DNA from: Wenjunlia tyrosinilytica | Lineage (GTDB): Bacteria > Actinomycetota > Actinomycetes > Streptomycetales > Streptomycetaceae | DNA: 36,964 bases | Assembly (NCBI RefSeq): GCF_014646055.1 | Contig: NZ_BMMS01000047.1 | Coordinates: forward strand, 1 to 36,964 | Reading direction: 5' to 3' | Shown here: positions 10,959 to 36,246 of the stretch, piece by piece | Layout: each line of letters starts with the position of its first letter | How positions within the stretch are numbered: position 1 is the first letter of the stretch | The notes under the pieces: generated by a model | Told to the model about the DNA's origin: nothing | Seen by the model: only the letters and a program-made list of their open reading frames with translations | The model's database searches: none | Made by a program: the position numbers and the translations under genes

Positions 10959-12203
10959 ATGGACTCACGGCGTGCGCACTTATGGCGCGCGGCGGCTTGG
11001 CGGCCGCTGGTTGCGGGCGTTCTGTGCGTCCTGCTCGGCCCGGGCGCCGCTAGCGCGGCCGACGGCAGCCCGCTCGCCGGTGAACTGCTCACCTCGTCGG
11101 ACACCATCGACTCCGGACACCCGGTCGACCTCGTGCTCTCGGTCCAGAACCGGCAGTCCGTGCCGGTGAGCCTGCAAAAGGTCGACGTCCTGGCCTCGGA
11201 CGGACTCAGGGCGTGCGCCTGGCGGCAGACCGCATGCGACGCACATTTCGCGTCCCGCCCGGCGCCGGTCCGCAGCGTGGCGGCTGGCGATACCGCCACC
11301 CTCCGCTACCGGCTGCGGTCCCAGGGACGCCTGTGGCCGGGTCCGAAGCTGGTGGTCGTCAGCGTACACGGACGCTACGTCCTCAAGGGCAAGCCGCACC
11401 AGGTGTCACTGACGCTGAGCAAACGGGTTCAGTTCGCTGTGCTGGGCGAGGCGCAGTTCATCAGCGGCATCGGGGTCCCCTCGTTCCTCCTGCTGCCCGG
11501 GTTCCTGCTGCTCGCCACGTACCGCCTCCTCGCACGGCGCAGCCGGCAGGGCGAGGCCGCCTTACCGCAACTGGACGTCAACGCCATGGAGTTCGTCGCC
11601 CTGTCGGCGTCGCTCTCTATCGCTGCGGTACCCCTCTTCTGGGTGATCTCGTGGTTCGCCGGGGAGCCGAGAACCTATCTCGATGGCTACGACACCCAGG
11701 ATCTCCTCGCGGTGTGGATCGGCTCGATCGCCGCCGGGGCCGTCGCCTTTTCCGTGCCCGCCGCCCTGGCTGCCATACAGCTGTGGCTGCGGACCCCGCA
11801 GCTGACCGACAGCCCGGGGCAGGCGCTGAGCCGGCTGGCCAGAGCCGGCGAGGGGCTCACCCGGACGCAGATGCGCTTCCGCCACGCCGGGCCCGGCGGC
11901 GAGGTGCCGGCGCAGGCCTTCGTCTACGCTGCTCCGGCCGTCGAAGGAGATCCCTATTGGCTGATGCCCCCGATCCGCTACACCTGCCGGGCCGGGGCCG
12001 CGCCGGACGTGCACCGAAGACTTGTGGAACTGCTGCGCGGCGAAGCACCGGCCAAGGCGGTCCACGACTTCCTGCGCCAGCACGCGAAGGACGTGGACCT
12101 GTCGTGGGCGCCGGGCGCGCTGCGCGGCCCCGTCCAGGTGAGCGCCCCACAGGTGCGGGGCGAAGTTGCAGCGGCTCCGCTGCTGCGGATGGAGGCGCCC
12201 TGA
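10959..12203 (+). CDS. Membrane protein with secreted N-terminal domain, unknown function
   Basis: ATG 10959 follows GGGGAGAGG. The 414-residue product has a signal peptide (ending GPGAASA, cleavage near residue 34) and an extracellular beta-rich domain of about 130 residues with SVQNRQSVPVSLQKVDVLAS and VRSVAAGDTATLRYRL, which resembles an immunoglobulin-like fold. Three membrane helices follow: near 168-190 (VPSFLLLPGFLLLATY), 208-232 and 247-275 (GSIAAGAVAFSVPAALAAI). A cytoplasmic C-terminal domain of about 135 residues contains YWLMPPIRYTC and HDFLRQHAKDVDL. Two leucines are encoded by TTA (codons 8 and 202), which predicts dependence on the bldA tRNA. I do not recognise a named family. 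It heads a rightward three-gene set, 154 bp before the next gene. Confidence 0.75.
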   Translation: MDSRRAHLWRAAAWRPLVAGVLCVLLGPGAASAADGSPLAGELLTSSDTIDSGHPVDLVLSVQNRQSVPVSLQKVDVLASDGLRACAWRQTACDAHFASRPAPVRSVAAGDTATLRYRLRSQGRLWPGPKLVVVSVHGRYVLKGKPHQVSLTLSKRVQFAVLGEAQFISGIGVPSFLLLPGFLLLATYRLLARRSRQGEAALPQLDVNAMEFVALSASLSIAAVPLFWVISWFAGEPRTYLDGYDTQDLLAVWIGSIAAGAVAFSVPAALAAIQLWLRTPQLTDSPGQALSRLARAGEGLTRTQMRFRHAGPGGEVPAQAFVYAAPAVEGDPYWLMPPIRYTCRAGAAPDVHRRLVELLRGEAPAKAVHDFLRQHAKDVDLSWAPGALRGPVQVSAPQVRGEVAAAPLLRMEAP

Positions 12204-12357: not shown

Positions 12358-13554
12358 ATGCTTCGCGTTCAGCAGCTCCGCCTGACCTATGCGTGGAGCG
12401 TCACCACTCCGGGGCTGCTGGACGGCGCCACGCATGGGGCCCCGGCACCCGCGATGACGTTTCCCGCCGACTACGTCCGCGCCTTCGACGCCGTCGGGAA
12501 CACCGGCGTGATTCCCGCGGGCGGCGCCCCCTGGCCCGGTAGCACGGACGAACCGTCCCTGACCCGTCCATGGCCCCCGCGCAACGAGGCCGTGGACGAG
12601 GTAGTCAACGTGTGGGCCAGAGCGCTTGGTTCGCGGGACTACGCCTCGCTGAGCAGTCGGCGCTTCTGGCGCGCCCAGATCCCGCTGGCAGTTCCTCGCC
12701 CGCCTCTGCGCCTCGCGCAGGACACGGCAGAGACGGTGGTGACCGGGACCGCCCTGTGCCACCCGCTGGGCAACTCCGTCGCCGTCACGGCGGCGATCAG
12801 CGGCGATCTCGACCCCGGCCGACTGGCCGAGCGTGTGGCCGACATCGATCAGAGCGCGCGGCTCCGGCTGGCAGACGGGCACACCACCCAGACCTACCCG
12901 CTGCGCACCCTCGGCCCCGAGCTGCTGCGGCGGTTGCACACGCACCGGGGCGGGACGGGCATCGGCGAGCCCGAATTCGATCCGTTTGTCGTCGTCACCG
13001 TCGTCCGGGCCGACCCGGACTGCACGGACGACGAATGCCGGGCGACCGAGGGCGGCGCTGTGCACCATCTGCTGCACGCCCTGGCCACGCGCGCCCGCCT
13101 CACGGAGTGTCCGGTGCCGCGCCGGCTCGCGGAACACAGCCTGCCGGGCCGCACCCACCAAGGGGGAGGCGTCCTCTACCGGCTGCCCCGGACCCGCGTG
13201 GTCTGGGCACCGTACCGGTTCCGGCGTGCAGGACGCAGCCGCTGGCTCGGCTGCTACCACCACAACCTGGCCTTGGCGAGCATGCTCACCGACGCCTGGC
13301 TCGGCGTCACCGCCTGGGCCGCCGACACCATCGCCGAGGGGCCGCTCGCACCGGGAGCTTTCGAGGTGGCGGAGCGTTGCGCCGCACTCCTCGGCCTCGT
13401 TTATGAGGAGAACCCCCGGCCGGCCCCCGTGTACCGCACCCGAAGCATGGCCGCTCAGATCGTGGACAGCGGGCTGGTACCCGCCCTGCAGGACGTCCGT
13501 GGCTATGTCGGCGCCCTCAGGGAACTCAAGCCCGCCTCACTAACCCCCGGATGA
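12358..13554 (+). CDS. Unrecognised 398-aa protein
   Basis: ATG 12358 is preferred because GGAGGT (12343-12348) lies 9 nt upstream; the in-frame GTG at 12322 has no such site. The product is soluble with no signal peptide. Recognisable stretches are LCHPLGNSVAVTAAISGDLD, FDPFVVVTVVRADPDCTDDE, RLPRTRVVWAPYRFRRAGRS, RWLGCYHHNLALASMLTDAW and ERCAALLGLVYEENPRP. The CYHHNLALASM segment and a final helix set give it the look of a folded enzyme or a receptor-like domain, but I see no classical catalytic signature. The stop overlaps the start region of the DUF1653 gene. I cannot name the family. Confidence 0.7.
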   Translation: MLRVQQLRLTYAWSVTTPGLLDGATHGAPAPAMTFPADYVRAFDAVGNTGVIPAGGAPWPGSTDEPSLTRPWPPRNEAVDEVVNVWARALGSRDYASLSSRRFWRAQIPLAVPRPPLRLAQDTAETVVTGTALCHPLGNSVAVTAAISGDLDPGRLAERVADIDQSARLRLADGHTTQTYPLRTLGPELLRRLHTHRGGTGIGEPEFDPFVVVTVVRADPDCTDDECRATEGGAVHHLLHALATRARLTECPVPRRLAEHSLPGRTHQGGGVLYRLPRTRVVWAPYRFRRAGRSRWLGCYHHNLALASMLTDAWLGVTAWAADTIAEGPLAPGAFEVAERCAALLGLVYEENPRPAPVYRTRSMAAQIVDSGLVPALQDVRGYVGALRELKPASLTPG

Positions 13555-13914: not shown

Positions 13915-14544
13915 TCACCGGGGTGTCAGCCGATAGGTGAGGGCCTGCACCGCGAGGGCGCAGCACCAGACCCACCACGGTAGTCCCGCCATGGCCACCC
14001 ACACCGCGGACGTGACCGCGAGGCCGAGGGGGTAGACGAGGGGCGTGTGCCTTCGGTAACCCAGCCGCACGGGAATCGATGCGACCCCCTCGCCCGCGTC
14101 CTTGGCCGCGTCCCGCACGTCACCCAGGAGGTTGCGGATCGTCATCAGGACGAAGACCAGCAGGACCTGTCTGGCATGGGCACCGGGCAGGGGCTCGATG
14201 AGGGCGACCTTGAGGCCCGCGTTGATCAGCGGCGACACAGCCGCCAGGAACGGGATGCGTTTTTTGAGGGAATAGCCCGCGGCCAGCACGAGGAAGGGCA
14301 CACACATCGGGTCGGCGACTAGGACCACCCCGGCGATCCACAGCAGCGCCCAGACCGGCCAGGGCCACCGCAACCGCCCCATGTCCCGGTGCTGCCACTC
14401 GAGATGGATCAGGAATCCGAACCAGAGAAGGCTCAAGCCCACCATGTCGCGCAGCCCTGCGTGCAGGGCCTGAAAGAGCAGAAGCAGGTCGACGTACGAG
14501 TAGATACGTAACTGGCCGAGGTAGTTGAGAGCGTGCTGCATCAC
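13915..14544 (-). CDS. UbiA-like membrane prenyltransferase homologue, short and lacking the first Asp motif
   Basis: The 209-residue product is strongly hydrophobic with about five to six membrane helices. Residues 136-162 read IRNLLGDVRDAAKDAGEGVA and SIPVRLG, the second aspartate-rich motif (D142-x2-D145-x3-D149) and following stretch of UbiA prenyltransferases. The usual first motif (N-D-x-x-D-x-x-x-D) is not visible; the equivalent loop has HLEWQHRDMG. Typical members have 280-300 residues. It could be a degenerate or specialised member, and prenyl transfer should not be assumed. Codon 12 (LGQLRI) is TTA. It follows the ALDH gene after 59 bp that hold a 32-bp palindrome. Confidence 0.65.
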   Translation of the reverse strand: MMQHALNYLGQLRIYSYVDLLLLFQALHAGLRDMVGLSLLWFGFLIHLEWQHRDMGRLRWPWPVWALLWIAGVVLVADPMCVPFLVLAAGYSLKKRIPFLAAVSPLINAGLKVALIEPLPGAHARQVLLVFVLMTIRNLLGDVRDAAKDAGEGVASIPVRLGYRRHTPLVYPLGLAVTSAVWVAMAGLPWWVWCCALAVQALTYRLTPR

Positions 14545-14562
14545 TGACCCCCCACGTCGTCG

Positions 14563-14594
14563 AGGCCCGGTGAGAGCGCGCTCTCACCGGGCCT
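14563..14594. terminator. Perfect 32-bp palindrome between ALDH and UbiA-like genes
   Basis: AGGCCCGGTGAGAGCG (14563-14578) is followed directly by its exact reverse complement, CGCTCTCACCGGGCCT (14579-14594). It starts 9 nt past the ALDH stop and ends 18 nt before the UbiA-like start. Such a stable hairpin without a T tract can terminate transcription in streptomycetes; a palindrome at this spot could equally be an operator. Confidence 0.6.
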
Positions 14595-14603
14595 ACCGAG
14601 AAC

Positions 14604-16094
14604 TCAGATCCGGAACACGGCCTTGGCGTCCAAAAATTCATCGAGCGCGCTCAGCCCCAGTTCCCGCCCCTGCCCCGAGAGCTTCACGCCGCCCCACGGC
14701 ACTTCGATGGCGAAATAACCGAAGCAGTTGACCCAGCACGTTCCCACGCGGACCTCACGGATGAACCTGTCGGCGAAACTCTCGTCCGACGTCCATACGG
14801 ACGTGGACAGGCCGTAGTCCGTGTCGTTGGCCGCTGCGATGGCATCGTCCGGACCGTCGACGGGGTAGATGCAGCCGACGGGGCCGAAGACCTCCTCCCG
14901 GGTGATCCGCATGCCGCGGGTGGCGCCGGTCAGGATCGTCGGCGCGTAGAACAGGCCGCCCAAGTCCGCTCCGCCCCCGCCCGTGGCACAGCTTGCACCC
15001 TCCTTCAGGGCACCCTTGACATAGCCGTCGATGCGCTCGAAGTGCTGCCGGTCGATTTGCGGCCCCTGCTGGGTCGCCTCGTCGAGTGGGTCGCCGAGGC
15101 GCCGCGACTCCGCGGCCGTGACCAGCCGGGCGAGGAAGTCTTCGTAGATGTCCCGCTGGACGTAAGTCCGGCTCCCGGCACAGCAGTTCTGCCCCGCGAC
15201 GTCGAACATGGCGTCGATCGTCCCGGCCACGGCGGCGTCCAGGTCGCAGTCCGCCATGACGACATTTGCGCCCTTCCCACCCAGTTCGAGGGTGAGGCGG
15301 GGCATCCGGCTGGTGGAACCGGCCACGATGGACCGGGCAGTGTCCACCGATCCGGTGAAGGTGATTTTGTCGACCCGGGGGTCGGCGGCCAGCGCCCGCC
15401 CCGCGACATCACCGACGCCGGTGACCACGTTGAACACACCCGGCGGGAACCCCGCCTCGGTCGCGAGCGCCGCTAAGGCCTGAGCGGACAAGGGGGCCCG
15501 CTCGGGCGGCTTGACGACTACCGTGCAGCCAGCGGCGAGGGCCGGGGCGATCTTCCACGAGATACAGGCGAACGGGAAGTTCCACGGGGTGATCGCCGCA
15601 CACACCCCGACCGGCACGGCGCATACGACGACACGCGCCGTGCCAACGTCCGGCTGGGTTGACGGCTCCCGTTCCAGGGCCGCGCGGGCGTAGTACCGGT
15701 ACACCTCCAGCGACTGGGGCACATCCCACCCGCGCACCCCCGCGAGGCGCTTGCCGGTGTCCGTCGCCTCCAGCAGGGACAGGCGCTCGGCGTCCCGCTC
15801 GATCAGGGCGGCGAACCGCTCCAGCGTGTCAGCCCGCTCCTGGGCGGTCATGCGGGGCCAGGGCCCCTCGTCGAAGGCGGTGCGGGCAGCGCCCACGGCG
15901 GCGTCGACGTCGCGGGGACCCGCGGTCGGCAGCACGGCGAGGGTCCGCTCCGTCGTGGGGTCGAGGTCGGTGAGCTCCGCGCTGCTCACGGGATCCCGGA
16001 ATCCGCCGTCGATGAACGGACGGAGATCGAGGGCGGGGATGAGGGAGGAGACGACCTGGTTCCTGCGGACGTCGGCGGGGGTTTCCCTGGTCAT
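14604..16094 (-). CDS. NAD(P)+-dependent aldehyde dehydrogenase
   Basis: ATG 16094 follows AAAGGAAC and overlaps the upstream stop in an ATGA arrangement. The 496-residue length is normal for the family. Visible signatures are the cofactor and catalytic asparagine motif TPWNFPF (N172), VVKPPE, FTGSVDTAR, the general base in LELGGKG (E270), the catalytic cysteine in GQNCCAGSRT (C304), and REEVFGPVGCIYPV with the terminal GGVKLSGQGRELG. The enzyme oxidises an aldehyde to the acid; the substrate cannot be read from sequence, but the GQ-x-CCAGSR form is that of betaine/retinal-type dehydrogenases. Leucine 207 is encoded by TTA. Its coupling to a DUF4365-like gene is unexpected. Confidence 0.93.
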   Translation of the reverse strand: MTRETPADVRRNQVVSSLIPALDLRPFIDGGFRDPVSSAELTDLDPTTERTLAVLPTAGPRDVDAAVGAARTAFDEGPWPRMTAQERADTLERFAALIERDAERLSLLEATDTGKRLAGVRGWDVPQSLEVYRYYARAALEREPSTQPDVGTARVVVCAVPVGVCAAITPWNFPFACISWKIAPALAAGCTVVVKPPERAPLSAQALAALATEAGFPPGVFNVVTGVGDVAGRALAADPRVDKITFTGSVDTARSIVAGSTSRMPRLTLELGGKGANVVMADCDLDAAVAGTIDAMFDVAGQNCCAGSRTYVQRDIYEDFLARLVTAAESRRLGDPLDEATQQGPQIDRQHFERIDGYVKGALKEGASCATGGGGADLGGLFYAPTILTGATRGMRITREEVFGPVGCIYPVDGPDDAIAAANDTDYGLSTSVWTSDESFADRFIREVRVGTCWVNCFGYFAIEVPWGGVKLSGQGRELGLSALDEFLDAKAVFRI

Positions 16095-17512
16095 GAAGTT
16101 CCTTTCGGATGGGTTCCGTGCACCAACAGCCGATCCGGTTGAGCAATAAAGAGTTCTCTCGGATAACGGACGAACAGCGACTCCCGCGGGAACATGAACT
16201 GCGGGCACGATCCTGGCAGCCGTAATTGCTCCCGGGGGATGTGGAACACCCGCGCCGCGTCCGCCTCGGTGTGGTTCGCGTCGAGCCAGGATTCCCGCTC
16301 GCGCGCGTTGATGAAATCGAGATTGTCCGCCAGGGCGTGTGTGCTCCCGATCTCGATCACCCAGTCCGCCCGGTCGCCCGACAGCGTGAACCAGGGAAAG
16401 TACCCGATGCCACCGCCGTAGTAGCTGAAGTCGTCCCCGGCATGGCTGCTCGGGCGCTGCACGAGGCGTACCTCCGTGTGCAGGGTCCGGTAGACCAGCA
16501 GGACGTGCCACAGGGTGGCCAGCATGATGAGCGGCACATCGCGGATGTCCTCCGAGGGCAAGGGGAGGAGCCGCTGGCTGAAATAGTCGTCGCGCCCGTT
16601 GCCGATCTCTCCGGAGGTCCGCATGAAATGGTGGTAGCAGGAGGAGAACAGCCAGAGGTTCGCGGTGCCGAAGAGGGATTCGGGGCAGTAGTTCCGTACC
16701 ACGTCGAGGCAGTGTGCCGCCTCGTACATCCGGTGCCTGATCACACCGAGCCCGGCCGCAAGTCCGGTCTGGAAGGAGATCTTCGAGAAGGTTGGTGGGT
16801 CGAACTCCCTGCGGAACCGGGGTAATCGCTGCTCCAGCAGCGACCAGCCCCTCTCCCCGATGGCGTCCACGCTCCGCTGCGGATGGAAGAAGTGCGGGAT
16901 GAGCCGGCTCAATTCCGGCAGCATCAGTAGTTCGGGTCCGGACAGCGAGGAGAAGTAGTCCGCCACCCAGCGCGCTCCCCACAGCAGCGAGAACGTGGCG
17001 AGGTTGAGCCGGTTCTGTTCCGGTATGTAGATGGCCTCGGCGCGGGATCTCCAGTCCGTGCGGCTGAAGTACTGGTTCAGGTCGAGGCCCCACCAGTGGA
17101 AGCGCTCGAAGGGCGACACCATCAGCAGGTCGTTCGGCCGCTGGGAACGGTCCCGCTGCACCGCGAGCGCCAGCATCAGCGGCGAGCCGCTTCGGCTGAA
17201 CTCGAACAGACTCTCCAGATCGCGGCGTTTGACGCCGAGTTTGATGCAACGGCCGCCGAGCGGGCTTTTGTCGACGAACTCCAACCGTGCGGTGGATTTC
17301 ACCTGCCATTCCAGGGTGATGTTCTCGGAGTTCTTCCAGAGCGAGGGAACGGTGATCCGAAAATCCACCTTCTGGGTGTCCGGCACTATCTGTGAGATCT
17401 GCGGCGCTCCGCTGCCGGTCAGCCACCATTCGAGCATGTCCTGGAAAGTGCGCTCAGCGATGTGACCGCGCTGTTCCGCCTCCTGCCCGGGGACGATGGT
17501 GTTGCCAGGCAT
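16091..17512 (-). CDS. DUF4365-like (PD-(D/E)XK-type) protein, unknown function
   Basis: ATG 17512 follows AGGGGGTC. The 473-residue product begins with EQRGHIAERTFQDMLEWWLT, then KVDFRITVPSLW (D near 49), ENITLEWQVKSTARLEFV with E-x-Q-V-K, IKLGVKRRDLESLFEF and SPLMLALAVQ. The order of N-terminal helix, acidic residue, (D/E)-x-Q-x-K strand and later K-x-x-x-L helix is that of DUF4365 domains, related to PD-(D/E)XK nucleases. Residues 150-473 are Trp/Tyr/His-rich (FHWWGLDLNQYFSR, GIGYFPWFTLSGDRADWV, WLDANHTEADAARVF) and match nothing I recognise. Two leucines are encoded by TTA (codons 230 and 430). It leads a leftward operon with ALDH. Nuclease activity is inference. Confidence 0.7.
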   Translation of the reverse strand: MPGNTIVPGQEAEQRGHIAERTFQDMLEWWLTGSGAPQISQIVPDTQKVDFRITVPSLWKNSENITLEWQVKSTARLEFVDKSPLGGRCIKLGVKRRDLESLFEFSRSGSPLMLALAVQRDRSQRPNDLLMVSPFERFHWWGLDLNQYFSRTDWRSRAEAIYIPEQNRLNLATFSLLWGARWVADYFSSLSGPELLMLPELSRLIPHFFHPQRSVDAIGERGWSLLEQRLPRFRREFDPPTFSKISFQTGLAAGLGVIRHRMYEAAHCLDVVRNYCPESLFGTANLWLFSSCYHHFMRTSGEIGNGRDDYFSQRLLPLPSEDIRDVPLIMLATLWHVLLVYRTLHTEVRLVQRPSSHAGDDFSYYGGGIGYFPWFTLSGDRADWVIEIGSTHALADNLDFINARERESWLDANHTEADAARVFHIPREQLRLPGSCPQFMFPRESLFVRYPRELFIAQPDRLLVHGTHPKGTS

Positions 17513-18589
17513 TATGACCCCCTAGGGTTCATTTGGATCGGGACGTTCGTCGGGGGGTTGCCGAAAAGGCCGCCTGAGCATAGCGTCGGCGCATGACGCC
17601 GTACACGGGAAACCTCGCTCCCGGATTACTCACACCGGCGTACACGCCACCGTTCGCGCGATCCCGTGCGTGGGGCATGCCACCCGCGTGTCCCGGCTCC
17701 CACTTCGACCGGCCGGTGCGCGGTGTGCACCCACCACAGCCCGGGCGACGACCACCAGCAAGCCCCGAAGCCACGAAATCCCGCCCGATCGAAGTGGTCG
17801 GACGGGATCTCGTCAACCGAACCCGGGCTAACTCAAGAACGGCCGCCACCCCCAGAGCCAGGGACTCAAGGGACACGAGTTCCCGATGTAAGTCGTGAAA
17901 GTCGAGGATCCAGCCGTCTGGAACCCAATGATCGACTCGCTGCACTTGCCCCCCTCGCCACCCTCACTCGGATAGCTCAACGAGTCGGCGGTCCGACAGT
18001 TCTGTTGGGCAGTGAATCGGCGTCAAATCCAAAGGGCCTGACCCGGTACGCCGACCAGCTCACCTCCGCCGACCTCCCTAGCCTGGTCCTACGGCCCACG
18101 CCGCCGCAACACCCGCCTGCCCACCTGTACACACCGGGCGAAAGACTGCGCCAACTGCCTGGACTACGCGCTGCGCTGGCACTCGCGGATCCTCCAGCCC
18201 TGACCGGCCCGGCTCGCAAGCAGAAGATGACCCGGCTCGGGTGGCACCGGCCACGGGCGCTGACGCAGGGGCGGCCGCCGACACCCGGTACCAACCACTT
18301 GATCCCTCCGATCCCAGCTGCGCCCAGGGACCTCCCACAGAGCCGGATGGGGCGGCATTGGGCTGGGTAGGGTGGAAGGACTGTCGTGGGGGTAGGACGG
18401 ACGCGGGTGCCCTGACATGGGGTTCCTGGCATCCGCCCCCAATTTTCGGGGCCTCGCGGCACCTGCACCGGCACGGGGTGGGCCGCGCGGGGCCCGGCAA
18501 CCGGGCCGTTCCCGGCGGCCTGTGATGGTATGGCTTCTATGCGGGCACTGCGGTGGCGTCGGCTTCGACCGCGACGGCGGGCACCGTTG
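17513..18589. other. No convincing gene
   Basis: This kilobase contains short open frames on both strands but none with a ribosome site, family motif or steady codon bias. A minus-strand frame near 17529-17945 (WVPDGWILDFHDLHRELVSL) and a plus-strand scrap near 18125-18200 (THRAKDCANCLDYALRWHSR) have protein-like composition and may be tails of decayed genes. I could not identify either. Confidence 0.4.
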
Positions 18590-19167
18590 CTGCCGAGGGT
18601 GTAGGAGACCGAGCCCTGCCTGCGTTCGCGGTCCAGGAAACCCTTCGCGACGAGCGCTTCGAGTGTGTTGCGCACCACCTGGAAACCCGGCTCTTCGCGG
18701 TGGGGGTGCGCCGTGGCGAGCTCGGCGATCACCTCGCGGACCGTGCGGGGCTGCTCGTGCCGGGCGAACAGCCCTTGACCAGCCCGCGCAGCGTGGATGC
18801 GCTGCCCCGCACCGCGGGCACCGCCTGGGACCCGGCCGCTGCCCTCTTCTTCCGGTCTGTGCCCGCTGTGCTGCCGACCTGGTCGCCCGCGCCCGGGGAA
18901 CCGGCGCGGCAGGGTTCGCCGCCCCGGGCCCACCACTGCCCACCGACCCCGGTGCAGCCGACGGCGCCGACGGGGCGGACTCACCGGTCAGGGTCCCGTG
19001 CACGCACACCAGCAGGGCGTGATCGCCCTCCAGAGCGGCCAGCCGGACCCGCAGCACCCGCAGCTGCTCGCCGATACGTGCCTGCTCCCGGGTGTTGGCC
19101 TCCAGGTCCGCAGCACCCTGGCCGCGTACTGGTCCTTCAGGGCGGTGGTGCCCGACTCGGCCGACAT
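18590..19167 (-). pseudogene. Winged-helix regulatory protein, multiply frameshifted
   Basis: ATG 19167 opens MSAESGTTALKDQYAARV. The frame slips near 19110; the neighbouring frame continues ADLEANTREQARIGEQLRVL, RVRLAALEGDHALLVCVHGT and a Pro/Ala linker. After a further change of frame near 18775 comes the C-terminal domain: LFARHEQPRTVREVIAELAT, HREEPGFQVVRNTLEALVAK and GFLDRERRQGSVSYTL. The whole is a coiled-coil N-terminus, a flexible linker and a winged-helix DNA-binding domain of about 190 residues, a layout found in conserved Streptomyces regulatory proteins. At least two frameshifts separate the parts, so no full product is made if the sequence is right. Confidence 0.6.
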
Positions 19168-19496: not shown

Positions 19497-20053
19497 TCAC
19501 TGCGGACCGAGCCCGTACTCGGTCAACCACCCGAGCATTTCCTCGCGAGAGGCCTCGACGAGACGCCCTCCGGTGAAGCGACATCGTAGGTCACCTCTGC
19601 CACGCACCCCGCAGGAGGAACGAAGGACAGCGCCTCCTCCTCGGTGGCGAACTCGGCCTCCGCCAGGACCAGGCCCTGCAGGAGACCCTCGAAGACATCG
19701 ACGCCCAACGGAGGCACGCTCAAACGCGTCTTGCACACCACCGCGGCCGGCAGCGAGGCGAGCAGCTCGTACTCGGCCGGCGACAAGTACGTACTGGTGA
19801 CCAGGCCCTGAACACCGCCCGGACGAGGGACCGGCACCTTCTGAGTGAGCTTGAGCTCGCAACCGCCGCCCGGAAAATCTGCACGCCGCAGCCGCAGACG
19901 TGTCCCCACCAGATACCGGTCGGTGATCACACGGGCGACCGTCACCCTTGACCGCGCCGGCGGTCCGGCCAGCAGGAACCGCCTCTCCCGCTCCACACGC
20001 GCATACCTTCCGGCACAAACCGACCGACCCTGAACCCCACCAGCCCCCTCCAT
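19497..20053 (-). pseudogene. CYTH domain protein (triphosphate tunnel family), one frameshift
   Basis: The minus-strand frame gives VERERRFLLAGPP at the N-terminus, TRLRLRRADFPGG, CELKLTQKVPVP, STYLSPAEYELLASLP, VFEGLLQGLVLAEAEF and VAEVTYDV. These are the charged strands of a CYTH beta-barrel, which binds triphosphates with metal ions; the usual E-x-E-x-K entrance appears as ERERR. Near 19583 one base appears lost (TACGATGTCGCTTC): the proper frame resumes as RFTGGRLVEASREEMLGWLT and ends at 19497. If the base is restored, the protein has about 180 residues and an intact CYTH core. Relatives act as inorganic triphosphatases or have unknown roles. An assembly error is possible, since all core motifs are kept. 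The start is uncertain. Confidence 0.7.
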
Positions 20054-20378
20054 CACGAAAACAGCCTCTCACCTCCTTCTCCCACATCACCTCGAGCCGC
20101 CGCGCTCCGCCCCTTTCACACGCACGCGAGACGATGACCGGCGCTTGGCCCTCAATGGCTCCGGCGTCTGATTTCAGTCGCTGGGTACGAGCCGTCCTGC
20201 CCCCGGACACCGGCGCACACCTCCGCCCGGACCGTCCGCCGTCCGCCACCCGCAACAGCACCACAGGCACACCGCCGTGCGCCCCGCCAAACGGCCTCTT
20301 CGACGCGCCCGGCCTGCACCATATGTAGGGGTCATTTCTGCCAGGATGTGGCTAAAGGCACAAGGGAAACGGGAGTGC

Positions 20379-33895: not shown

Positions 33896-35371
33896 TCAGG
33901 CCAGGTACTGGTAGGGGGTGTCGGCGCTGGTGCCGGCCGGGGTGTGCACGGTGACGGGGACGGTGCCGGGCGGCCCGGCGGGGGCGGCAGCGACGATCTT
34001 GGTGTCGGAGATCGCTGTGAAGGACACCGCGATGCCGCCGAAGCGTACCTCGTCGGTGTAGGTCAGGTTGCTGCCGGTGATGGTGACGACGTCGCCTCCC
34101 GCGGCCGGGCCCTGGGAGGGGTCGAGGGCATTGACCACCGGGGTCCCGAGGTAGGTGTAGTAGGCACCGCCGAGTCCGGGCAGGCTGGTGCCGCCCGGTG
34201 TGGTGACGGTGACTGTCGCCGTGCCCGAGCCGCTGGGAGCTTGGGCGGTGATCTGGCTGTCCGACAGGACGGTGATGCCGGTGGCGGTGCCGGTTGCGAA
34301 GTGGACGGCGCCGGTGAGGGTCAGGTTGCTGCCGGTGATGGTGACGGTGTTCCCGCCGGAGACCGGCCCTTGGGTGGGGTCGAGCCGTGTGACGGTCGGG
34401 GCGGGGATGTAGAAGTAGGGCAGCGGATTGCTGGTGCCGCCCGGCGCGGTGACCGAGACGTTGACGGCAGCTGCGGGGGCCGTGACGGTGAGTTGGCCGG
34501 CGGTGTTGCCGGTGATGGTGGCAGGCTTGGTCCCGAACGTCACCGTGGTGGCACCGATGAGAGCGGTACCGGTGATGGTGACGGTGTTCGCGCCGGCGGC
34601 CGGTCCCTGGCTGGGAGTCAGAGCGCTGATCGCGGGCACGGGGTTGTAGGTGAATGCCGCACCGTTGCTGGTGCCGCCCGGGGTGGTGACCGTGACGTTG
34701 ACCGTTCCCGAGCCGGCGGGCGCGGCCGTTGTGATCTGGGTGGCGCTGACCGGCGTGAACGACACCGATACCGAACCGAACTTCACCAGGGTCGCTCCGG
34801 TGAAGTCCGTGCCGGTGATCGTGACGGGCGTGCCCCCGGCGTTCGAACCGCCGTTGGGACTGAGACCGGTGATCACCGGAACGGCGTTGTACGTGTACGG
34901 CACACCGTTGCTGGTGCCGCCCGGGGTGGTGACCGTGACGTTGACCGTTCCCGAGCCGGCGGGTGCGGCCGTTGTGATCTGGGTGGCGCTGACCGGCGTG
35001 AACGACACCGATGTCCCACCGAACCTCACCGCGCTCGCTCCGGTGAAACCCATGCCGGTGATCGTCACGGGTGTGCCCCCCGCGGCCGGGCCGCTGGTGG
35101 GACTGACACCGGTGATCACCGGCACGGTGCTGTAGGTGTACGGCACACCGTTGCTGGTGCCGCCGGGGGTGACCACCGTGACGTTGACCGTTCCCGAGCC
35201 GGCGGGTGCGGCCGTTGTGATCTGGGTGGCGCTGACCGGCGTGAACGACACCGATGTCGCACCGAACCTCACTGTGGTCGCTCCGGTGAAGTCCGTGCCG
35301 GTGATCGTCACGGGCGTGCCCCCGGCGTTCGAACCGCCGTTGGGACTGAGACTGGTGATGACCGGGACCAT
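33896..35371 (-). CDS. IPT/TIG repeat protein, six repeats
   Basis: ATG 35371 has AAGGAG at 7 nt. The 491-residue product is made almost entirely of six immunoglobulin-like IPT/TIG repeats of about 81 residues. Each has the order P-x-I-x-x-L-S-P-x-x-G-x-x-x-GG-x-x-VTITG, V-x-FG, VS-x-TQIT, and VTVTTPGGTS with a final PYTY. Repeats 1-3 share long identical stretches at DNA level with a 243-bp period, while repeats 4-6 are diverged. I see no signal peptide, membrane helix, LPXTG-type motif or catalytic domain; the protein starts directly with repeat 1 (MVPVITSLSPNGG). IPT/TIG domains usually occur in surface proteins, so a leaderless repeat protein is odd. It follows a second IPT gene after about 90 bp. 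Confidence 0.88.
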   Translation of the reverse strand: MVPVITSLSPNGGSNAGGTPVTITGTDFTGATTVRFGATSVSFTPVSATQITTAAPAGSGTVNVTVVTPGGTSNGVPYTYSTVPVITGVSPTSGPAAGGTPVTITGMGFTGASAVRFGGTSVSFTPVSATQITTAAPAGSGTVNVTVTTPGGTSNGVPYTYNAVPVITGLSPNGGSNAGGTPVTITGTDFTGATLVKFGSVSVSFTPVSATQITTAAPAGSGTVNVTVTTPGGTSNGAAFTYNPVPAISALTPSQGPAAGANTVTITGTALIGATTVTFGTKPATITGNTAGQLTVTAPAAAVNVSVTAPGGTSNPLPYFYIPAPTVTRLDPTQGPVSGGNTVTITGSNLTLTGAVHFATGTATGITVLSDSQITAQAPSGSGTATVTVTTPGGTSLPGLGGAYYTYLGTPVVNALDPSQGPAAGGDVVTITGSNLTYTDEVRFGGIAVSFTAISDTKIVAAAPAGPPGTVPVTVHTPAGTSADTPYQYLA

Positions 35372-35399
35372 GGCGCACTCCTTCTGGCTCACGCACGCT

Positions 35400-35432
35400 G
35401 TGCCCCGGCTGACGCGGTGTCGGCCGGGGCAC
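35400..35432. terminator. Hairpin between the two IPT genes
   Basis: GTGCCCCGGC (35400-35409) pairs exactly with GCCGGGGCAC (35423-35432) over a 13-nt loop. It lies between the stop at 35461 and the next start at 35371, both read leftward, and could stop or attenuate transcription into the larger IPT gene. Confidence 0.6.
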
Positions 35433-35460
35433 GGCGGCGGTCCCCCGTTGGGCCGAGGGA

Positions 35461-36246
35461 TCAGACGACGGTGAACACGTCGGCGGCGACGACAGCGCTG
35501 GTGCCGCCCGGGGTGGTGACCTGGACGTCGTAGGTGCCGGCGGCGAGCCCGGCGGGGACGTCGGTGAGCAGGCTGCCGGGACCGGTGGGGGTGAAGGAGG
35601 CCGCCACCGACGCTCCGCCGCCCGTGGGGGTGAAGGTCACGGCGCTGGTGTCGCTCAGGCAGGTTCCGCTGACGATGACGCCCAGGGTGCCGGCCGCCCC
35701 GGAGGTGGGCGACAGGCCGGTGACCGCGGGAACGTCGCAATAGGTGAACTGGCCGGGGGCGCCGATCGGGAGGCTGACGCCGCCGGCGCTGGTGACCGTG
35801 AGGTCAACGGTGTCCGTGCAGGCCGCGAAGGCACCGTGCACCGGCGGTGTGACGGTGAGCTGGGAGTCCGACACGACAGTGGGCACGGCGGTGCCGACCG
35901 CACCGAAGGTCACCAGGGTTGCGGTCGACAGCGCGCTGCCGGTGATGGTGAGTGCAGGAGGGGCGGCCGGCCCGATCTGGGCGCTCAGAGCCCCGGGCGC
36001 CGGTGCGGCGATGTAGAACAGCGGCAGGGAGTTGCTGGTGGTGGTTCCCGCGGTCACGCTGACGCTGACCTGACCGGCGCAACCCGCCGGGATGACGGAG
36101 GTGACCGTGCCGGCGGCAACGGTGGCGGGGGTGACCGACTTGGTCCCGAAGTTCACCTTGGTGGTGCCCCCCAGGGCGCTGCCGGTGATGGTCAGCGTGA
36201 CCCCGCTGTGGCTCTGGGTCGGGCTCAGTGCGGTGATGGTGGCCAT
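35461..36246 (-). CDS. IPT/TIG repeat protein, about three repeats
   Basis: ATG 36246 follows AAGGAG at about 8 nt. The 261-residue product has three diverged IPT/TIG-type units: MATITALSPTQSHSGVTLTI with NFGTKSVTPATVAAGTVTSV, then GPAAPPALTITGSALSTATL with FGAVGTAVPTVVSDSQLTV, and VPAVTGLSPTSGAAGTLGVI ending with VQVTTPGGTSAVVAADVFTV. Cysteines at CAGQ, CTDTVD, YCDV and TCLSD are unlike the second protein, which has none. There is no signal peptide or anchor. It is probably co-transcribed ahead of the six-repeat gene, subject to the hairpin in between. Its role is unknown; sugar- or protein-binding is possible. Confidence 0.85.
   Translation of the reverse strand: MATITALSPTQSHSGVTLTITGSALGGTTKVNFGTKSVTPATVAAGTVTSVIPAGCAGQVSVSVTAGTTTSNSLPLFYIAAPAPGALSAQIGPAAPPALTITGSALSTATLVTFGAVGTAVPTVVSDSQLTVTPPVHGAFAACTDTVDLTVTSAGGVSLPIGAPGQFTYCDVPAVTGLSPTSGAAGTLGVIVSGTCLSDTSAVTFTPTGGGASVAASFTPTGPGSLLTDVPAGLAAGTYDVQVTTPGGTSAVVAADVFTVV

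Follow-up and report, generated by a model that had tools for sequence, protein, structure and literature searches.

Introduction

The DUF4365 nucleases described in PMC12205087 and PMC10810196 serve as effectors of short-Argonaute defense. In NbaSPARDA, the catalytic residues D41, Q60, and K62 belong to a DREN (DUF4365) domain with a PD-(D/E)XK fold (PMC12205087), and for TmuRE, Q62 and K64 have been put forward as active-site residues (PMC10810196). Here, a putative distant relative of these nucleases, encoded in a 36,964-nucleotide stretch of Wenjunlia tyrosinilytica (NZ_BMMS01000047.1, the whole of which is referred to as the window), was analyzed together with the two genes that follow it, one for an aldehyde dehydrogenase (ALDH) and one for a short UbiA-like protein. 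The draft genome comprises 8.49 Mb in 172 contigs, of which the window is contig 47, and the searched collection contained one other genome of the genus.

All three genes carry the codon TTA. The reading of this codon in Streptomyces has been linked to tRNA-Leu(TAA), and a survey of 213 species reports great variability among the genes that carry it, poor conservation of most TTA codons, and their frequent presence in transposase, nuclease, and helicase genes; the authors find the horizontal transfer of many TTA-bearing genes conceivable (PMC10327506).

With a probability of about 55%, we read the locus as a strain-specific, acquired accessory pair of nuclease and dehydrogenase genes, which would be co-translated, with an unlinked UbiA-like neighbor. 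An acquired pair was favored because no convincing relatives of the DUF4365-like and UbiA-like genes were found in the genomes searched, the codon usage is atypical, the sampled small contigs of this genome are rich in TTA, and the left-hand neighbor was found in none of 20 relatives.

A DUF4365-like gene overlapping an aldehyde dehydrogenase gene

The initial annotation had described three genes, for a 473-amino acid (aa) protein, an ALDH, and a short UbiA-like protein, with an ATGA overlap between the first two. Three minus-strand open reading frames (ORFs) and the overlap, as read from the sequence, were confirmed:

16091-17512, minus strand: DUF4365-like gene, 473 aa (ORF listing), with an N-terminal DUF4365/DREN-type nuclease domain (predicted) and a C-terminal region of about 290 aa of no recognized family
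14604-16094, minus strand: ALDH gene, 496 aa when read from the ATG of the ATGA; the open frame around it is longer (941 aa)
13915-14544, minus strand: UbiA-like gene, 209 aa (ORF listing), a putative membrane protein with a C-terminal half resembling UbiA
16091-16094, minus strand: ATGA shared by the ALDH start codon and the stop codon of the DUF4365-like gene
16976-17449, minus strand: DUF4365-like domain, residues 22-179 (hhalign)
17297-17365, minus strand: candidate catalytic residues D50, Q70, and K72 (D-x19-Q-x-K; DUF4365 alignments)

The Pfam model PF14280 (DUF4365) scored the 473-aa protein at 20.1 bits, and at 22.6 bits in the genome search. A purpose-built profile of 21 DUF4365 domains gave 18.2 bits, with 1.4 bits for the best of 200 shuffled sequences, and hhalign aligned residues 22-179 to this profile with a probability of 81%; an independent DUF4365 alignment covered residues 40-175 with a probability of 70%. 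The domains had been drawn from 21 genomes as 26 rows, of which 21 entered the profile and 17 the conserved-column alignment. The profile omitted L162, L164, and L165 (which resemble L161 in length), L172 because it is a fragment, and L174, which is the query.

The conserved columns D29, Q48, and K50 of the 17-domain alignment matched D50, Q70, and K72 of the protein, in register. Nuclease chemistry is likely because these three residues fall on the positions given as catalytic in NbaSPARDA, the Q and K also being the candidates in TmuRE. Hence, the 473-aa protein is likely to be a distant DUF4365 (DREN) nuclease. The DUF4365-like assignment of the initial annotation held in so far as nearly the whole domain was aligned with the catalytic D, Q, and K kept; the score did not reach the Pfam cut-off. 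In PADLOC, only two weak PDC-M02A matches to the nuclease domain were obtained (E 0.008 and 0.035), and the single-sequence models of the 473-aa protein (AlphaFold2, pLDDT 31.6) and of the UbiA-like protein (pLDDT 51.2) were too poor for a fold search.

Comparison of the C-terminal region with SPARDA proteins

Neither Pfam nor PADLOC nor PHROGs gave a match to residues 180-473. The protein is comparable in size to DUF4365/DREN-APAZ chains (442-467 aa) and has the same order, a nuclease domain followed by about 290 aa. This overall layout, together with a catalytic D, Q, and K the same as those of DREN, would suit a relict SPARDA-type defense system, that is, a DUF4365-APAZ partner whose short Argonaute was lost. 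An APAZ profile was assembled from nine plasmid-borne proteins (33 plasmid records matched), found via an Aminobacter DREN-APAZ/Argonaute pair. It scored the whole 473-aa protein at -0.2 bits (best of 300 shuffles, 2.5 bits), as against 172.9 bits for the positive control L152. The short local APAZ similarity around a DWVI stretch, a further point in favor of a relict, was taken as chance (hhalign probability 1%, E 0.051; BLASTP E 1.7). Moreover, the Argonaute family was not found among the 24 window ORFs tested, a subset of the ORFs of the window; the 3' neighbors are the ALDH and UbiA-like genes, and it is the ALDH gene, instead of an Argonaute gene, that overlaps the 3' end. Membership in SPARDA was rejected because the C-terminus was not recognizable as APAZ and no short Argonaute adjoined it. 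The APAZ profile test largely refutes the relict, which we regard as scarcely credible.

Compared with the DUF4365/DREN domain of the SPARDA effectors (PF14280), the 473-aa protein is alike in a domain aligned over nearly its entire length, with the catalytic D and Q-x-K retained. It differs in its sub-cut-off Pfam score, in a C-terminal region that was not recognized as APAZ, and in an ALDH neighbor in the place of the short Argonaute.

Several loci with DREN-APAZ proteins were noted in the course of this comparison. The control L152 (481-1950, minus strand) encodes a 489-aa DREN-APAZ protein in a genome of the same order. On the Aminobacter aminovorans plasmid pAA03 (L228, 2926-5699), a DREN-APAZ protein is accompanied by an overlapping short Argonaute (by PDB match), which is annotated as "hypothetical protein", and the SPARDA-type pair is not named so in the annotation. 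A DREN-APAZ relative on a plasmid of Roseomonas sp. OT10 (L227, 2926-5217) gave a match split around an IS5 family transposase gene.

The aldehyde dehydrogenase

The second gene had been annotated as an ALDH, and this was borne out: its product matched Pfam Aldedh (PF00171) over residues 39-493 with 519.5 bits (cut-off 23), the score of a canonical family member, and stretches that we take to be the catalytic Cys and Glu motifs of the family were present. On this assignment the protein is an aldehyde dehydrogenase of the usual NAD(P)-dependent kind. The nearest NCBIfam models were those of betaine- and phenylacetaldehyde dehydrogenase, and no curated NCBIfam cut-off was reached among the 25 of 44 matches listed. 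The protein also stands apart from its family in identity. The best-scoring matches listed were 45-47% identical in 121 family genomes and in 345 class genomes (for the latter, matches with E up to 1e-120 only), and identity was below 60% in all 2,547 matched plasmid records, the best among the matches listed being about 46%.

Distribution of the genes and of their order

The 473-aa protein was found in its own genome only, both among 394 family genomes and, once two chance matches had been set aside, among 345 class genomes. These two matches (L036 and L037; E 0.0017 and 0.0028; query residues 2-62) lay in 543- and 562-aa frames resembling solute-binding proteins, and a weak PDB match (E 0.36-0.4) linked query residues 2-62 with dipeptide-binding lipoproteins. 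Nothing was found in plasmids, in phages, or in the pattern scans of viral contigs and GTDB contigs. Likewise, the UbiA-like protein was restricted to its own genome among 394 family genomes, with one match set aside as chance (L003, E 5.5e-4, where the 80-aa frame is interrupted by a stop), and among 325 class genomes besides L038 (E 0.0065), taken as a probable chance match; the GTDB contig pattern scan and the plasmids gave nothing for it. The pattern scans detect close relatives only, and distant ones may exist.

The gene order was compared at 88 loci (32 for ALDH, 26 for DUF4365, and 30 for UbiA, the window's own included), selected at cut-offs that find the genes of the window. Flanks were mostly about 1.5 kb per side, and shorter in L171, L175, L180, L190, and L194. 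Adjacency of DUF4365 and ALDH genes, or of ALDH and UbiA genes, occurred only at the window's own loci, L004 and L174, and no conserved neighborhood of the three genes was present among the genomes and loci searched, an outcome that the initial annotation had named as one that would refute it. In the single literature library consulted, no paper joining DUF4365 with aldehyde dehydrogenase was found, and none on UbiA, aldehyde dehydrogenase, Streptomyces, and the TTA codon.

The left-hand neighbor of the three genes (12358-13554, plus strand) was found in none of 20 relatives. It encodes a 398-aa protein that, tested as a frame from 12322, had no match in Pfam, NCBIfam, or PHROGs.

These distributions also bear on the possibility that the region is hypervariable and the three genes are mere passengers in it, so that not even the nuclease and ALDH genes are functionally linked. 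The stretch appears strain-specific, no second DUF4365-ALDH pair was seen at the 88 loci, and 4-bp overlaps are ordinary in this genome, where 48 of 346 same-strand neighbors show one (mostly large-contig sample). On the other side, the overlap makes co-translation of the two genes likely, and co-translation usually implies some shared use. We hold unrelated neighbors to be possible, though rather doubtful.

The UbiA-like gene and the preceding palindrome

In the initial annotation the UbiA-like gene was a member of an operon with the other two, which was not confirmed. It starts 59 bp past the ALDH stop, and the gap contains the following element:

14563-14594, minus strand: perfect palindrome of 32 bp in the gap separating the UbiA-like gene from the ALDH gene, a terminator-like hairpin without a T-run

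A 71-nucleotide stretch of this region had a folding energy of -40.4 kcal/mol (z -4.38). There is no T-run on the 3' side, and a consensus scan for intrinsic terminators gave no flag. Hairpins with perfect arms of at least 12 numbered 72 in 1,356,185 sampled bases, and 63 of these 72 were located outside called genes, a pattern as expected of terminators. Because the palindrome lies between them, the UbiA-like gene was set apart from the ALDH gene and is probably outside the nuclease-ALDH unit, transcription through the palindrome into it being possible.

Pfam UbiA (PF01040) scored the 209-aa protein at 14.1 bits, under the cut-off of 34.2, and a purpose-built UbiA profile of 25 rows scored the whole protein at 21.3 bits (best of 500 shuffles, 6.0). 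The match spans residues 82-203. UbiA prenyltransferases have a typical length of about 290 aa and need two Asp motifs. Here, the second motif, DxxDxxxD, is present (D142-x2-D145-x3-D149) and is followed by a G...S.PVRLG stretch; the first, NDxxDxxxD, is absent, with HLEWQHRD at its position in the UbiA alignment. The annotation as UbiA-like was thus sustained for the C-terminal half and the second Asp motif, and failed for the first motif and the Pfam cut-off. Since both motifs are needed and one is missing, the protein may be degenerate or have another function; it also differs from the superfamily in its length. The poor model contained helices only, and the protein is probably located in the membrane. 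A PDB match to a viral spike (E 0.1) was set aside as chance.

TTA codons and codon usage

Four in-frame TTA codons had been reported across the three genes, and each was found exactly at its position by an in-frame check:

16823-16825, minus strand: DUF4365-like gene, codon 230
16223-16225, minus strand: DUF4365-like gene, codon 430
15474-15476, minus strand: ALDH gene, codon 207
14509-14511, minus strand: UbiA-like gene, codon 12

Two background samples of 40 stretches each were taken from the genome. The first, mostly from large contigs (746,034 bases), contained 6 TTA in 190,288 codons, with 5 of 570 called genes carrying one, in agreement with the rarity of TTA stated initially. In the second, from small contigs (613,117 bases, one of the 40 stretches being all N), 23 TTA were counted in 120,551 codons and 19 of 309 called genes carried TTA, a rate six times that of the first sample. 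The stretches were picked by contig, not randomly, and the first sample includes the smaller contigs C38, C41, C48, C59, and C73; furthermore, the gene caller was tuned to high-GC3 genes, so that atypical genes may escape it. The three genes contain 4 TTA in 1,181 codons, compared with 0.037 expected at the large-contig rate and 0.225 at the small-contig rate (Poisson P about 9e-5), and three consecutive TTA-bearing genes were not found elsewhere in either sample. The clustering of TTA in these genes is real.

Other small contigs are also rich in TTA, such as L112, with 7 TTA in 3 of 6 called genes. In the window, 5 of 23 called genes carry TTA, the two beyond the trio being 1677-2240 and 10959-12203. 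The latter ORF (plus strand) carries TTA at codons 8 and 202 and matches DUF1616 weakly, below the cut-off.

The codon adaptation of the DUF4365-like, ALDH, and UbiA-like genes fell at percentiles 2.0, 9.2, and 2.2 of 500 reference genes. A tRNA-Leu gene with anticodon TAA is present in the genome (L073, 8435-8518); we take it to be of the bldA kind, the tRNA named in the initial annotation.

That annotation had raised a development-timed system as a possibility; in it, the nuclease, the ALDH, and the membrane protein would cooperate and be held back by TTA until the bldA tRNA appears. In favor of such a system are the presence of TTA in each of the three genes, at a level exceeding both sampled backgrounds, the tRNA-Leu(TAA) gene, and the overlap of the first two genes. 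It is opposed by the lack of convincing relatives of the DUF4365-like and UbiA-like genes in the searched genomes, by an adjacency seen at no locus beyond the window's own, by the palindrome preceding the UbiA-like gene, and by a codon usage that is atypical generally, beyond TTA. With no conserved gene order, the proposal was left unsupported, and we consider it improbable.

The three genes resemble the TTA-bearing accessory genes of Streptomyces, as described in PMC10327506, in having a rare TTA in genes without relatives and in a genome with tRNA-Leu(TAA); they differ in being three adjacent TTA genes above the sampled background. Since the codon usage is atypical and in view of those published findings, the TTA codons can be explained without developmental selection. 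In our reading they are most probably a signature of gene acquisition, and any dependence on bldA would be a side effect.

Interpretation of the locus

Foreign origin of the gene pair is most likely, judging from codon usage and distribution. Several results nevertheless weigh against an acquired, co-translated nuclease-dehydrogenase pair. The DUF4365 score stays below the Pfam gathering cut-off of 24.3 bits. A profile of nine SPARDA-type DREN domains scored the 473-aa protein at -1.0 bits (best of 300 shuffles, 3.3; control L152, 117.3), and the protein would fit, if anywhere, the wider DUF4365 set and not the SPARDA-type DREN. No mobile-element gene was found among the 24 window ORFs tested, and three adjacent TTA-bearing genes exceed even the small-contig background. 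When ranked among 253 small-contig genes, the DUF4365-like, ALDH, and UbiA-like genes stood at percentiles 15.4, 42.3, and 15.8; foreign origin is not proved because their codon usage falls within the range of these genes. Finally, both the co-expression and the partnership of the nuclease and the ALDH are predictions, which was likewise counted on this side.

If the pair is as we propose, the ATGA overlap would lead to co-translation, and presumably co-expression, of the DUF4365-like and ALDH genes. The PD-(D/E)XK domain, of DUF4365/DREN type and Mg-dependent, would cut nucleic acid when the C-terminal part permits, the protein's own region of about 290 residues probably controlling the nuclease. 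The ALDH would act as an independent enzyme or, in a partnership, would provide or remove the trigger of the nuclease. The UbiA-like gene, behind the terminator-like palindrome, would be a separate one, with a membrane protein that is degenerate or divergent as its product. The TTA codons would stem from foreign codon usage, so that full expression may depend passively on the bldA tRNA rather than on a selected developmental switch.

A more elaborate version would be a nuclease effector module of a new kind, in which a DUF4365 nuclease is joined to a new sensor of about 290 residues and the ALDH makes or removes the signal. If true, this signal, either an aldehyde or the state of the NAD(P)H pool, would unleash the nuclease, and the three UUA codons of the DUF4365-like and ALDH genes would delay expression to late growth. 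We regard this module as very improbable. In general, a distant DUF4365 member with an unrecognized C-terminus and a metabolic partner would broaden the inputs answered by such nucleases, and, as the locus suggests, successive TTA codons in an actinomycete of high GC content may be a sign of DNA acquisition and are, alone, no proof of developmental control.

Other open reading frames of the window

Upstream of the nuclease gene, the ORF at 17977-18984 (minus strand) had weak, sub-cut-off matches to Penicillinase_R and GPP34 and is possibly a decayed regulator. Beyond it, the ORF at 19523-20056 (minus strand) has a very atypical codon usage and no Pfam match; it presumably resembles a CYTH/triphosphate-tunnel protein. 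Three IPT/TIG repeats were recognized in the ORF at 33896-34543 (minus strand), with which the plus-strand called frames at 34650-35474 share near-identical stretches.

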